From Salipiger bermudensis HTCC2601 (GTDB lineage: Bacteria; Pseudomonadota; Alphaproteobacteria; Rhodobacterales; Rhodobacteraceae), in NCBI RefSeq assembly GCF_000153725.1, contig NZ_DS022276.1, forward strand, positions 2,776,853-2,840,852: DNA of 64,000 bases. Direction: 5' to 3'. A program made the position numbers and the translations under genes. Below are positions 19,448-23,670 of this stretch, piece after piece (within the stretch, counting starts at the first letter, position 1; each line of letters starts with the position of its first letter). Under the pieces are notes generated by a model, which searched no databases, was not told the DNA's origin, and was given only the letters and a program-made list of their open reading frames with translations.

Positions 19448-20280
19448 CGGGTGGCCTCCCAGTCGCGGCGCAGGTTGCGCATCGCTTCGACCGCATCAAG
19501 AACAAAGGGCGTGCCACAGATCCAGTTCTGCCCGTCGGGGATCTCGTGCAGGGTGCCGGTGGACCGCAGTACCGGGTGCTGCAGCAGCGCTGTGGCCTGC
19601 GCCGGGCTGTCATAGGGCTGGCCCACGAGGATCATGTCGGGCTGCGCGAGCACCAGTTCCTCGAGCGGCAGCCGGCCGCCATAGGGCAGGCCGCGCGACT
19701 CGGAGATGTTCGCCATCCCGGCAGCGGCAAGGATCTCGCCGGTGAGCGACTGGACCCCGGCGGTCTCGTTGAAGGGCAGGTAGTAGGCCACGACCGGGCG
19801 TGTCTCGGGGGCATCGCTCAGCTCGGCGAGGCGGGCGTCGAAGTTTGAGAGCAGGGCGTCGGCCTCGGTCTCGCGCCCGAGCAGGGTGCCCATGCGCAGG
19901 ATGTTGTCGCGCACATCCTCGAGGGAGTTGGCCGGGTTGAAACGTTCGACGCGGTAGCCGAGCTGGTCGAGCATGTCGGTGGCGGCGCGGGCGGTGAAGT
20001 TGCCGGCGAGAACGAGATCGGGCTCGAGCAGGGCGATCTCCTCGGCATGGGCGTGATTGGCGGGCAGGGCACCGGCCTCGCGCGCCATCGCCGAACTGCG
20101 CGGGTCATGCGCGAGCGGCGAGACCGAGATCAGCTGGCCGGGCGCCGCGAGCAGCAACGCGAGCTGGTCGGTGCAGACGTTGAGAGAGACGACGCGGGCC
20201 GGGCCCGCGTCGTCGGCCGCCGCCGCGCCTGCCATGAGGAGCAGGGCGGCGGCGAGCGTGGTGGGCCTAGAAGCGCGCAC
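19444..20280 (-). CDS. btuF: Periplasmic cobalamin-binding protein
   Basis: A 278-residue helical-backbone class III binding protein. A signal peptide (LAAALLLMAGAAAADD) precedes RVVSLNVCTDQLALLLA, typical of BtuF/FhuD/HemT. The conserved lobes contain EIALLEPDLVLAGN, LLGRETEADAL, LPYGGRLPLEELVLAQPDMI and a C-terminal Trp-Asp helix. Start chosen at GTG 20280, which overlaps the btuB end by 14 bases; longer versions would run deep inside btuB and displace the signal peptide. Confidence 0.88.
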   Translation of the reverse strand: MRASRPTTLAAALLLMAGAAAADDAGPARVVSLNVCTDQLALLLAAPGQLISVSPLAHDPRSSAMAREAGALPANHAHAEEIALLEPDLVLAGNFTARAATDMLDQLGYRVERFNPANSLEDVRDNILRMGTLLGRETEADALLSNFDARLAELSDAPETRPVVAYYLPFNETAGVQSLTGEILAAAGMANISESRGLPYGGRLPLEELVLAQPDMILVGQPYDSPAQATALLQHPVLRSTGTLHEIPDGQNWICGTPFVLDAVEAMRNLRRDWEATR

Positions 20281-22129
20281 GGATCCCCGCGTAGTAGGCG
20301 CGGCCCGTGGTCTGGTAGTCCGGCACGATCTGGTAATCCTCGTCAAAGAGGTTCTCGATGCGGACGTAGCCCTCGAAGCCGTTGCCGAAATCGTAGCTCG
20401 CCTGCGCGTTGACCACAGTGTGATCGTCGCTTTCGTCCTGAACCGTCACGCCCCAGGTTTCGGCATAGTCGGCCTTGTGCACAACGCTGAGGCCTGCGCG
20501 CAGCTGGTCGGTGATGTCGGCATCGAGGCGCATGGCGAGATCGTAGCGCGGCACGCGTGCCAGCGGATCATCGTCGTCGTCGCGCGCATCGGTGTAGGTG
20601 TAGCTGCCCGAGAGCGTGAAGCGGTCGCCGAGCGGCACGCTCCCGGCAAGCTCGAGGCCCTTCGACACGGAGGTGCCGGAGACCTGGGCGTAGCCTGTCC
20701 CCTCGTATTGGATCAGGTCGTCGATCTCGGTGTAGAACCAGGTCGCGCCCAGCGTGGCGCCATTTGCAAAGGCATAGTCCGCGCCGATCTCGCCACCGCG
20801 GCTGGTTTCCGGCTCGAGGCCGTCATTGCCGTAGGACGGGCTGTAGAGCTCGTAGAGCGACGGGGCACGATAGCCCTTGGCGAGGGCGCCGCGCAGCGTC
20901 AGCGCCTCGGTGGCACGCCAGGACACGGTCGCGCGACCGCTCCATTCGCCGCCGAACTCGGAATGATCGTCGTGGCGCACGGTGACCACGGCATCGACAT
21001 CCGGCGTGAAGGCCCAGGCAAGCTCGGCATAGGCGCCGGTGTTGTCGATCGACTCGCTGTTTTCCGCGGTGCCGACGCGCGAGAAGAAGGCATCATAGAC
21101 CGGAGCGCTGAAATCGGCCTCTTCGAGGCTGTGATCGGCGCCGAAGCTCAGGCTGCGGCCGGCGGCGAATTCCCATGTGCCGCTATAAGTCCACTTGTCG
21201 CGGGTCGAGCCGAAGCTGTCACTCCAGCCGGCGGCGTCGGTGTCACGGTCGATCTGGTAGCGCGAGTAGGCTAGCTCGTGCGCCACGGCACCGGTCTGCA
21301 GCTGGGCATAGGCGCGCAGGCCATAGCTCTCGGTGTCGGTCGTGCCACTCTCGGGGGCGGTCCAGTCGTTGGAGTCGTAGTCGCCCTCGGCGTCGAAGCG
21401 GAAGCCCGAAAGGCCGACGCGCAGATCCGGTGTCGCCTGGAAATAGCTGTCGAAGGCCAGCTGGGTCGCCGCAAAACCATCATCCTCGTCGTAGTCGTCG
21501 GCCTCGACCGCCGAGAACCCGTCGGTCACGAAGCGCGTCGCGCTGAACGCGACACCGGCACGCTCGGTCGCGGCGCCGTAGCTCAGGGCCGCGCTCTTGG
21601 TGTTGTAGGTGCCGGCCTCGGCGCCCACCTTCGTGGTCTGGCCGGGCTCTTCCGGCGCACGGGCGAGGTCGATCGCGACGATCCCCGCGACCGCATCTGC
21701 ACCGTAGAGCGCCGACTGAGCACCTTTGAGCACCTCGACGCGGCTCACGCCGCCGGGAAGGATGTTGCCGAAGTTGAAGCTGCTCTGCGTCGACGAACTG
21801 TCGGTCACTTCGATGCCGTTGATATAGACCGGCGCATAATAGGAGGGCAGGCCGCGGATGCTGACCGCGCTGCTGGTGCCGGGGCCGCCATTGGTTACGA
21901 CGTTGACGCCGGGCAGCGTGTCGAGCGTATCGGCCAGCGTGGTCTCGGGGCTGTCGTCCAGATCGCGCTCGGTGAGGACCGACACCGAGGTGCCGGTGCG
22001 GCCGAGCTCGAACGGCGTGCTGTTGGCATAGAGCGTCAGCGTCGGGAGTTGGTAATACTCGGCATCCTGCGCGAGCAGGGGCGTGGTGCTCAGAGCGAGC
22101 ACCGAGGCGGAGGTGAGGACATGCTTCAT
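20267..22129 (-). CDS. btuB: TonB-dependent outer-membrane cobalamin receptor
   Basis: A 620-residue TonB-dependent receptor, about the size of BtuB. A signal peptide ends at LLAQ; a TonB-box-like segment LPTLTLYANS follows. The plug domain contains LADTLDTLPGVNVVTNGG, SIRGLPSYYAPVYINGIEV and GGVSRVEVLKGAQSALYGADAVAGIV, and the 22-strand barrel ends in RAYYAGIRARF with a terminal Phe, the signal for barrel insertion. Acidic loops (DDYDEDDG, DARDDDDD) could bind Ca as in BtuB. It is directly downstream of a cobalamin riboswitch. Confidence 0.94.
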   Translation of the reverse strand: MKHVLTSASVLALSTTPLLAQDAEYYQLPTLTLYANSTPFELGRTGTSVSVLTERDLDDSPETTLADTLDTLPGVNVVTNGGPGTSSAVSIRGLPSYYAPVYINGIEVTDSSSTQSSFNFGNILPGGVSRVEVLKGAQSALYGADAVAGIVAIDLARAPEEPGQTTKVGAEAGTYNTKSAALSYGAATERAGVAFSATRFVTDGFSAVEADDYDEDDGFAATQLAFDSYFQATPDLRVGLSGFRFDAEGDYDSNDWTAPESGTTDTESYGLRAYAQLQTGAVAHELAYSRYQIDRDTDAAGWSDSFGSTRDKWTYSGTWEFAAGRSLSFGADHSLEEADFSAPVYDAFFSRVGTAENSESIDNTGAYAELAWAFTPDVDAVVTVRHDDHSEFGGEWSGRATVSWRATEALTLRGALAKGYRAPSLYELYSPSYGNDGLEPETSRGGEIGADYAFANGATLGATWFYTEIDDLIQYEGTGYAQVSGTSVSKGLELAGSVPLGDRFTLSGSYTYTDARDDDDDPLARVPRYDLAMRLDADITDQLRAGLSVVHKADYAETWGVTVQDESDDHTVVNAQASYDFGNGFEGYVRIENLFDEDYQIVPDYQTTGRAYYAGIRARF

Positions 22130-22289
22130 CCCTGTCCATCCTTTCCATGTCGGCCCTTCAGGCAGAAGGGCGGCTGTCGTGGTGTTCGCGGAAAGAGAGG
22201 ACGGAGTCCGGATCCCGTGAACGGTGCGGATGTCACCACGAACGGAAAGACCGTACCCCGAAGCGCAGCCCCGCGCATGGGGAGGGTGA

Positions 22290-22455
22290 TCACCTTGGCA
22301 GGTCTCCTGACTTGCGGGTCATCGCGCGACGCGGGCCTTCCCGGGCGTTTCGCCCAGTGGCATATGCCGGTCGCACTCACCGCTCACAGTTGCGGGGGCA
22401 GTCGCGGGTTTGCACCGCGTTCCCTATTCTCCGGACAAGGCCCGGAACCGAGGCC
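22290..22455 (-). promoter_or_regulatory. Cobalamin (B12) riboswitch controlling the btu operon
   Basis: On the minus strand the transcript contains the conserved aptamer core GGTGCAAACC...CTGCCCCCGCAACTGTGAGC, a B12-box-like GCCACTGG about 30 bases further, and the 3' segment GATGACCCGCAAGTCAGGAG ending in ACCTGCC. These are the invariant blocks of the AdoCbl riboswitch. About 160 bases separate it from the btuB start and would hold the expression platform. Boundaries are approximate. Confidence 0.93.
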
Positions 22456-22826
22456 CGCTCCGCTTAATGCGGCGCGTCGCACCACACAAGTGCTTCCTTG
22501 GTGCCAGCCGCCGGGCGCGTGGATTCGGGGCCGCATGGGAATGGATGGCACCGCGCATGGGATTGCATGGAACTGATTTGGGAAATACTGCCCCCGCGTG
22601 GGTCAGAGCGCGCATCACGGCCGGATTTTCAGGTGATTCATCGGGTCTGGTGCGCCCGAATCCGGGTTGATCTCAGGAGGCCTAAATTCGTGTGTTTCGC
22701 AAGAAAACATTTTTGGGATTTTGCGGCCCGTGACATCCTCACGACAGCGTGACTATATGTAGTTGCGTGCAGGTTCCCGCTTACCACATGTTTGTGAGAT
22801 TTTGTCGAATGGGCCTCTACATGTTG

Positions 22827-22849
22827 TTTTCCACAGGGGGTGTGGACAA
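22827..22849. promoter_or_regulatory. Inverted pair of DnaA-box-like sites upstream of mraZ
   Basis: TTTTCCACA (22827-22835) and TGTGGACAA (22841-22849) are each one mismatch from the consensus TTATCCACA and its complement, facing each other across 5 bases. Weak evidence; binding untested. Confidence 0.35.
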
Positions 22850-22865
22850 GAACTTGTGCTTTCTC

Positions 22866-22900
22866 CCGAAATTCCCCGTTGCCTCCCATGAATTCCCATG
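22866..22900 (-). promoter_or_regulatory. Putative MraZ operator (four half-sites at 10-bp phasing)
   Basis: Read on the minus strand there are TGGGA (22896-22900), TGGGA (22886-22890), CGGGG (22876-22880) and CGGGA (22866-22870), each exactly 10 bases apart. MraZ of E. coli binds direct TGGGN repeats with 5-base spacers upstream of mraZ; this array has the same unit and phasing. It lies about 260 bases upstream of mraZ, at the likely promoter of the leader. Confidence 0.6.
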
Positions 22901-22914
22901 ACATACCTTTAACC

Positions 22915-23136
22915 ACGATGAGGGACGGGACAGAGGGCAAAAAACAAAGCCCCGGCAAACACCCACAATAATAAAAGAGCAGGTTCATACAGGCACCCGC
23001 CCTCATCGAAACACAGAGATCCGGCGCGCGAGCGAGCAGACATCCCCCCCAGGTGGCGCGCGCAGCTGGACCAGCCCGCACAGCGGGTCAAGGCGGCGGG
23101 TTGATCGGTGGCAGCAGATCAACCCGCCGTATTTCG
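22915..23136 (+). ncRNA. upsM: UpsM-like small RNA / mraZ 5' leader
   Basis: The roughly 220 bases between the putative operator/promoter and mraZ contain no gene and end in a strong hairpin followed by TATTTCGTTT. In Rhodobacter sphaeroides the sRNA UpsM (about 206 nt) is the 5' leader of mraZ released by partial termination at a Rho-independent terminator. Position, length and terminator agree here; primary sequence conservation was not checked. The 5' end is a guess. Confidence 0.6.
23094..23136 (+). terminator. Terminator hairpin in the mraZ leader
   Basis: Perfect 13-bp stem CGGCGGGTTGATC / GATCAACCCGCCG, 10-base loop, followed by TATTTCGTTT, ending 25 bases before the mraZ start. It must be read through for dcw expression, so it is an attenuation point. 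Confidence 0.85.
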
Positions 23137-23160
23137 TTTCAAGGGGCGTGAGTAGGGACA

Positions 23161-23670
23161 GTGGGCCGCAGGCTGAGGTTCAGAGGCGAAAGTCGGCACA
23201 AGGTCGACAGCAAGGGCAGGGTGTCCATCCCGGCCTCTTTTCGCCGTGTGCTTGAAGCCGGTGATCCCGACTGGACCGAAGGTCTGAGCCCCAATTTCGT
23301 GATCGTCTACGGCGACCAGCGCCGCAAGTATCTCGAATGCTTCACCATCCAGGAAATCGAGGCCATCGAGGACCGCATCAGCAACATGAAGCGTGGCTCG
23401 CGCAAGCGGCGCCTGCTCGAGCGGCTGATCTCGGGCCAGTCGGTCACGTCGAGCGTTGACGACACCGGTCGGATCGTGATTCCTGTCAAGCTGCGCGACA
23501 AGATCGCGCTCGAGAACGAAGCGCAGTTCATCGGCACCGTCGACACCTTCCAGATCTGGGAGCCCGCGGCCTACGAGGCCGATCTCGAGGAGACCGAGGA
23601 CGAACTGGCCGATTTTGACGGCGACCCGCTGGAACTGCTCGATGAAGACGATGAGGACGAGGAGATCTGA
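23161..23670 (+). CDS. mraZ: Transcriptional regulator MraZ
   Basis: A 169-residue protein with two AbrB-like SpoVT/MraZ repeats: [20 protein letters not shown] and [20 protein letters not shown]. MraZ forms ring oligomers and binds repeats upstream of the dcw operon, repressing it. The C-terminus is an acidic tail (DEDDEDEEI), longer than in E. coli MraZ and common in this bacterial family. GTG at 23161 gives the expected start GRRLRFRG with GTAGGGA just upstream. First gene of the dcw cluster; rsmH begins after one base. Confidence 0.95.

Follow-up and report, generated by a model that had tools for sequence, protein, structure and literature searches.

Organization of the locus upstream of mraZ

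The window analyzed here is a 64-kb stretch of DNA from Salipiger bermudensis HTCC2601. It carries mraZ, the first gene of the dcw cluster, which is followed by a gene of the MraW family (Pfam). The original prediction placed a small RNA (sRNA) resembling UpsM in about 250 gene-free bases directly before mraZ. The stretch without a recognised gene is in fact longer and reaches back to position 22467, the end of a riboswitch, while its last ~246 nt form the leader. This riboswitch is of the cobalamin type (22280-22467, minus strand, 137.9 bits in Rfam), and a TonB-dependent receptor gene (20267-22129) lies downstream of it. The features of the leader are as follows.

22915-23139, plus strand: UpsM-like RNA of ~225 nt, 5' leader of mraZ and dcw (putative 5' end)
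22916-23008, plus strand: R1 domain, closing helix 22916-22924 and 22926-22929 with 22996-22999 and 23000-23008 (z -5.7; arm swap)
23020-23070, plus strand: R2 hairpin with the near-invariant loop sequence CGAGCAGACATCCCCCCAGGTGG, which has one C more in the window (conservation, covariation)
23074-23088, plus strand: R3, a short hairpin, weaker than the others (89% of cells paired)
23093-23130, plus strand: R4 terminator hairpin with the conserved loop RGTGGCAGC (inverted repeat, conservation, covariation, folding)
23131-23139, plus strand: interrupted T-rich tail (sequence)
23161-23670, plus strand: mraZ, GTG start (Pfam MraZ, 64 bits)

The 5' end of the leader was placed by the distance from the -10 element and by projecting the published UpsM start, 268 nt before mraZ, on Cereibacter johrii. 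Folding of the whole leader (22915-23160) gave -99 kcal/mol with a z-score of -3.9. The perfect 13-bp hairpin that had been predicted before mraZ is present as an inverted repeat of 13 nt (23094-23106 with 23117-23129), 100% complementary, with its arms 10 nt apart. Together with its tail, the hairpin at 23093-23130 has a folding energy of -29.2 kcal/mol and a z-score of -6.9 relative to 200 dinucleotide shuffles. The tail, TATTTCGTTTC, is T-rich as predicted, but it is interrupted. The predicted distance of about 25 bases to the start of mraZ also holds, at 24 nt counted from position 23136 and 30 nt counted from the end of the stem. A mechanical terminator scan of 22500-23500 returned no match; its loop limit of 8 is shorter than the 10-nt loop of the R4 hairpin. 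In the 64 kb, 7 separate sites have perfect inverted repeats of at least 12 bp with a loop of 3-12 nt, compared with 0-1 in 8 shuffles. Therefore, the 13-bp hairpin is not a product of chance, although such hairpins are not rare in the window. The six other perfect repeats with short loops lie at 1837, 6028, 10821, 14655, 20188, and 38683, and several of them are probably terminators.

Conservation and folding of the leader

A search for mraZ covered 61 genomes, and the 40 upstream regions retrieved all have a tblastn match to MraZ (40/40). The window and 33 regions from its own family were aligned (n=34). Seven regions were set aside, namely the upstream region of genome G027, which lacks the motif described below, that of G036, which runs into a contig end, and five from other families. 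R2, R3, and R4 are common to 30 of the 34 aligned leaders. Covariation was tested on these 30 after the four leaders without R2 had been dropped; 20 of the 30 belong to one genus, so the counts are not independent. Across R2-R4, 98.3% of cells are paired, and 10 pairs show two-sided changes in 48 such cells, with a covariation score of 0.203. None of 500 shuffles reached any of these four values. A fifth covariation measure, the number of pair types, was not above the shuffles (141/500). Sliding the pairing partner breaks the R2-R4 structure in the same 30 leaders, and R2 folded by itself is no more stable than shuffled sequences (z -0.9).

MAFFT aligned R1 poorly, and this domain was therefore tested by swapping arms among 15 genus representatives. 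The native arms of the closing helix gave a mean of -18.1 kcal/mol and the swapped arms -12.8, with 0 of 20000 permutations as good, though the native partner ranked first in only 5 of the 15 genera. R1 is closed by a stem of about 11 nt, as in UpsM. Weber et al. describe R1 of UpsM as hardly conserved (PMC5089854). The R1 sequence is variable indeed, yet its closing helix and one motif are kept. This motif, UUCAUACAGGC at 22984-22994, is the longest invariant block of the leader.

Distribution of the leader

Two checks had been proposed along with the original prediction, a search with an UpsM covariance model and an alignment to upsM of Rhodobacter sphaeroides. For the first, a model of R2-R4 was trained on 17 of the 30 leaders that have R2, among them that of the window, whose own match scores 131.4 bits. 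It matched 263 of 295 family genomes (238 of the 260 of high quality), with a single match per genome except for two in G136. A class-wide draw of 240 genomes yielded matches in the own genome and in two family members, and in none of the remaining 237, of which 217 were counted without itemising. The model thus behaves as would be expected for a leader confined to the family. This distribution, as far as model matches tell, agrees with the restriction of UpsM to Rhodobacteraceae stated in the published report (PMC5089854); we infer that the surveyed family is the Rhodobacteraceae.

The alignment to upsM was run on close proxies. PufX led to three named genomes from the R. sphaeroides group, those of Cereibacter johrii and Cereibacter ovatus and one recorded as Luteovulum azotoformans. 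In all three, mraZ is preceded by an R2 core without mismatch, together with an R1 motif that differs by a single T-to-C change. The R2 core lies on two contigs in C. johrii, probably one locus assembled twice.

The R1 motif extends beyond the leaders with R2. The four aligned leaders without R2 keep it, as exact TTCATACAGGC in L050, L053, and L063 and as TTGATACAGGC in L062. In further loci, ATACAGGC precedes R2 in 31 of 32. The exception, L196 of genome G178, has TTTCGTACAGGC, the only variant motif there, which keeps a G-U pair with the sRNA described below. Among the family genomes without an R2-R4 match, 14 of 32 were checked and 10 had an mraZ locus; 7 of these 10 carry TTCATACAGGC upstream, and it is absent upstream of mraZ in G105, G129, and G100. 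The five loci from other families have neither an R2-R4 match nor ATACAGGC upstream of mraZ.

No Rfam family reached its threshold for the leader, the best being asX6 with 19.9 bits (threshold 50). When the own genome was searched for further R2 loops, only three matches came up, all with 3 mismatches; the copy in the window escaped this search because of its extra C. Genome G030 was considered as a case of UpsM without mraZ and was ruled out, as an MraZ-like ORF (by eye) that the HMM search had missed follows the leader.

A candidate partner sRNA

The complement of the R1 motif has exactly one exact second site in the own genome, and this site lies antisense to a 76-nt sRNA gene. When as many as 3 mismatches were allowed, the own-genome search gave 44 matches against 40 for a reversed-pattern control, and only the exact match stands out.

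G000:C6:3585150-3585075 (L094 3076-3151), minus strand: 76-nt StsR-like sRNA gene in the own genome (motif search, model)

The sRNA consists of 5' ACTGCTCGATAGGTTTCTTGCCTGTATGAAACCTGCCTC, a hairpin with the loop GCCUGUAU, and a strong terminator with eight T. At 33 of 37 sRNA loci, [CGT]TTG and 18 or 19 nt precede a TAT element (a loose pattern, counted without a chance control). These elements may represent an RpoH-like promoter. The sRNA gene adjoins a gene resembling 3-hydroxybutyrate dehydrogenase (by eye), and likewise in the R. sphaeroides group.

BLAST found the sRNA in 37 of 37 family genomes, and the 24 other genomes gave one match, to the terminator only. By covariance model, it is present in 289 of 295 family genomes (258 of the 260 of high quality), with two matches in six of the 289. 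In the class-wide draw (n=240), strong matches came from the own genome and two family members, and weak ones of 26-31 bits from 4 of the remaining 237. The 39-nt 5' core is identical in 35 of the 37 family genomes and unchanged in all of the 30 best-scoring loci of the model search (30/30), one of which, G030, is also among the 37. The first 35 nt occur without mismatch in C. johrii, C. ovatus, and L. azotoformans.

Some genomes, such as G020, G023, G033, G034, and G027, match the sRNA but not R2-R4, and the sRNA therefore has other targets. One published target is rpoE. Conversely, R2-R4 is present without an sRNA match in G178, G200, and G211, whose assemblies are 71-92% complete. A tie between loss of the sRNA and a changed motif was considered and rejected: G178 has the variant motif, but G211, likewise without an sRNA match, has an intact one, and both assemblies are incomplete.

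No Rfam family reached its threshold for the sRNA. Below threshold, similarity was found to SorX (27.4 bits, threshold 46.6), Hrs13 (24.1, 52), and BjrC1505 (28.2, 50). This weak similarity would fit a partner from another RpoH-dependent family, SorX-like and not StsR, whose match to UpsM is secondary. We consider this unlikely. The Rfam alignments rest largely on the layout of hairpin and terminator, and a conserved, exact complement of the UpsM motif is in keeping with the role published for StsR. In addition, SorX is reported to come from an mRNA 3' UTR (PMC6238624), whereas the sRNA here has promoter-like elements of its own (the loose pattern above, at 33 of 37 loci, without a chance control).

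Predicted pairing with the leader

The sites of the leader that are involved in the predicted pairing are the following.

22980-22994, plus strand: site A', CAGGTTCATACAGGC, complementary to the sRNA loop and 3' stem arm with one A of the sRNA bulged (search, duplex prediction)
22995-23003, plus strand: region matching the published RNase E cut, in the 3' strand of the R1 closing helix (putative; projected via C. johrii, then by eye)
23015-23021, plus strand: site B', AGAGATC, second predicted sRNA contact, G-U pairs included (duplex prediction)
23033-23039, plus strand: site C', CGAGCAG in R2, complementary to sRNA nt 2-8, CUGCUCG (duplex prediction; a 7-mer that may be chance)

Duplexes were predicted between the first 48 nt of the sRNA and the leader in 34 genomes, and in each of them (34/34) the R1 motif is covered. 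CGAGCAG, which pairs with the 5' end of the sRNA, is present in 31 of the 34 leaders, and a third contact comes from the segment between R1 and R2 in most of the genomes. The predicted contacts follow each other in antiparallel order, as one long interrupted duplex requires. In 32 of the 34 genomes, at most 4 of 200 shuffled leaders gave a duplex energy as good; the figure was 11 of 200 in L053 and L062. The lone 7-mer contact CGAGCAG was rejected as significant by itself, since about 0.5 occurrences are expected by chance (arithmetic). Covariation across the duplex between the UpsM-like leader and the sRNA was not found, because changes of the motif are not mirrored in the sRNA: the window's genus has one T fewer, and the Cereibacter group has a C where the sRNA keeps its A. 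The missing T explains the bulged A of the sRNA at site A'.

In R. sphaeroides, UpsM starts 268 nt before mraZ and the RNA is 206 nt long, as published (PMC5089854), and an RNase E product of 130 nt is given in a second report (PMC6238624). Projected on C. johrii, the cut is placed at AGGCACCCGC^TTTCATCC, immediately 3' of the motif and within the R1 closing helix. According to a third report, binding of StsR to UpsM makes a double-stranded region accessible to RNase E (PMC8307010). The sRNA described here is predicted to pair with the UpsM-like leader, as StsR does with UpsM, and the predicted duplex would loop out the region that matches the published cut. This close fit to the RNase E cut and to the role of StsR suggests that the partner is very probably StsR, an identification made from fit and published role.

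The pairing also bears on a proposal of Weber et al., who suggested a riboswitch for R. sphaeroides (PMC5089854). The leader would then be a metabolite riboswitch with an aptamer in R2 and R3 and the terminator in R4, and the sRNA would be a mere by-product. The R2 and R4 loops are near-invariant, and pairing with the sRNA explains this only in part. Nevertheless, we judge this explanation quite unlikely, as sRNA pairing accounts for the R1 motif as well as for some of the R2 loop, the leader has no Rfam family at threshold, and some family members have the R1 motif without an R2-R4 match. The switch of R2-R4 is, moreover, not conserved in the family consensus according to the same report (PMC5089854). 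It is very improbable that the hairpin is just a terminator that insulates, or an element acting in translation close to the start of mraZ, with no functional sRNA: the short distance of the stem to the start codon (30 nt) and the interrupted T tail would suit this, but the whole leader is conserved family-wide, its R1, R2, and R4 covary, an sRNA is matched to it, and UpsM is abundant and Hfq-bound in R. sphaeroides (PMC5089854).

Putative promoter and upstream repeats

The region before the leader contains the following features.

22752-22764, 22815-22827, and 22846-22858, no strand assigned: NrdR-box-like sites (consensus scan; NrdR identity putative)
22879-22907, plus strand: putative promoter of the leader and dcw cluster, TTGCCT (22879-22884), 17-nt spacer, CATACC (22902-22907) (sequence, family conservation)
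22885-22899, no strand assigned: CCCAT-N5-CCCAT direct repeat inside the promoter spacer (sequence)

A sigma-70 consensus scan of 22500-23500 returned no site, and the same scan missed the conserved TTGCCT/CATACC promoter. The strict CCCAT-N5-CCCAT repeat stands upstream of mraZ in 22 of the 34 aligned family regions, in all five loci from other families, and in 14 of 31 further loci, counted without a chance control. We take this repeat in the promoter spacer to resemble MraZ operators.

Farther upstream, sites resembling NrdR boxes (scan consensus ACNATATNTNGTG) repeat with a spacing of about 31 bp. A fourth site near 22783 was seen by eye only and has more than 3 mismatches in the window. 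With up to 2 mismatches, such sites occur in 32 of the 34 aligned upstream regions, compared with 2-7 in 10 mononucleotide shuffles, and pairs spaced 29-35 bp apart occur in 28 of 34, compared with 0-2; 20 of these first 34 regions come from one genus and are not independent. Of 31 further loci, 30 have sites, compared with 2-9 in 20 dinucleotide shuffles, and 20 have spaced pairs, compared with 0-3. The repeats recur in many genera of the family. The 64-kb window contains 97 single sites with up to 3 mismatches, but its only spaced pair with at most 5 mismatches in total is 22815/22846. Among control regions without an UpsM-like leader, 2 of 6 have a site. Within the repeat region, an inverted TTTTCCACA..TGTGGACAA at 22827-22849 is common to several members of the genus, which we take to be DnaA-box-like.

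In another genome of the class, two NrdR-box-like sites 31 bp apart stand in front of a 689-aa ORF with an ATP-cone match, which is probably a ribonucleotide reductase. A gene with an ATP-cone is also present that is probably nrdR, and the nrdR loci of the window's genus have no NrdR-like site within 1 mismatch (9/9). NrdR boxes are described as having a spacer of 15-16 bp and about three turns between centres (PMC12051234). The upstream repeats likewise offer at least two box-like sites with centres about three turns apart, as would be expected of an NrdR operator. Among the paper titles and abstract openings listed in literature searches, none dealt with NrdR at mraZ or dcw in Rhodobacteraceae. 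A paper on WhiA of Streptomyces contains the words NrdR, dcw, and cell division (PMC3781837). These repeats hint that dNTP status may control the division genes.

Proposed regulation and comparison with known systems

The arrangement before mraZ claimed in the original prediction is borne out by the order of R1-R4, the terminator, the family-restricted model, and the R2 core in the R. sphaeroides group. Beyond that first reading, the locus offers an antisense sRNA partner, a conserved R1 site that fits the sRNA, and operator-like promoter repeats. It can be concluded with good confidence that 22915-23139 is an UpsM-type leader of the dcw operon, probably terminated in part to give an sRNA and paired at three sites by an StsR-like sRNA. 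This conclusion draws on the anatomy of the leader, its structural covariation, its conservation across the family, and its complementarity to the sRNA, all of which are directly observed. Attenuation with release of a free sRNA is supported by homology and by conservation of the terminator. For S. bermudensis itself, the events in the cell (termination with read-through and sRNA release, pairing, and cleavage) and their physiology would follow by analogy with R. sphaeroides.

The leader matches UpsM (RSs0682), the dcw 5'-leader sRNA of R. sphaeroides, in its position before mraZ, the layout and order of R1-R4, and the Rho-independent terminator (PMC5089854). It is an mraZ 5' leader with one strong intrinsic terminator and the sequence and structure of R2-R4. 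It differs in length, ~225 nt compared with 206 nt, and in the probable end of the RNA, ~21 nt before mraZ compared with 62 nt (268 minus 206) for UpsM. The R1 motif also differs, by one T fewer in the window's genus and by a T-to-C change in the R. sphaeroides group. StsR (RSs0827) depends on RpoHI/HII and binds UpsM; the sRNA described here has a putative RpoH-like promoter (by the loose pattern) and fits beside the published RNase E cut. SreA and SreB of Listeria likewise arise from a terminating 5' leader and give trans-acting RNA, but they are SAM riboswitches, whereas the partner of the leader here is an sRNA and no ligand is known (PMC5089854).

According to the proposed mechanism, one promoter just upstream would give rise to the leader transcript. 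Most RNA polymerases would stop at the R4 hairpin and release the ~225-nt sRNA, as judged from R. sphaeroides, and a minority would read through into mraZ and the dcw genes. The StsR-like sRNA, from its putative RpoH-like promoter, would then pair with the leader at three sites in antiparallel order. First, the sRNA loop and 3' stem arm, GCCUGUAUGAAACCUG, would pair with CAGGUUCAUACAGGC in R1. Second, GGUUUCU of the sRNA would pair with AGAGAUC between R1 and R2. Third, CUGCUCG at its 5' end would pair with CGAGCAG in R2. As a result of this pairing, the R1 closing helix would come apart, and the RNase E site, which lies between the first and second contacts, would be looped out. With R1 opened and the RNase E site exposed, stress and stationary phase would lower free UpsM and dcw mRNA.

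As a tentative and somewhat doubtful extension, the dcw cluster in Rhodobacteraceae may be wired to three inputs at one leader, namely an NrdR-like array for dATP/ATP status, MraZ-like promoter repeats for autoregulation, and a terminator leader tuned by a near-universal stress sRNA, which would clamp it at three sites and thereby expose an RNase E site. If the NrdR link is true, a repressor known from ribonucleotide reductase genes would also act on cell division, and the repeats, if bound, would tie nucleotide supply to division. R1, published as hardly conserved, holds here the longest invariant block of the leader and a covarying closing helix. The sRNA matched by this block is nearly as widespread as the family, and the story of one species would thereby become a family-wide rule, open to testing, on how stress slows division.
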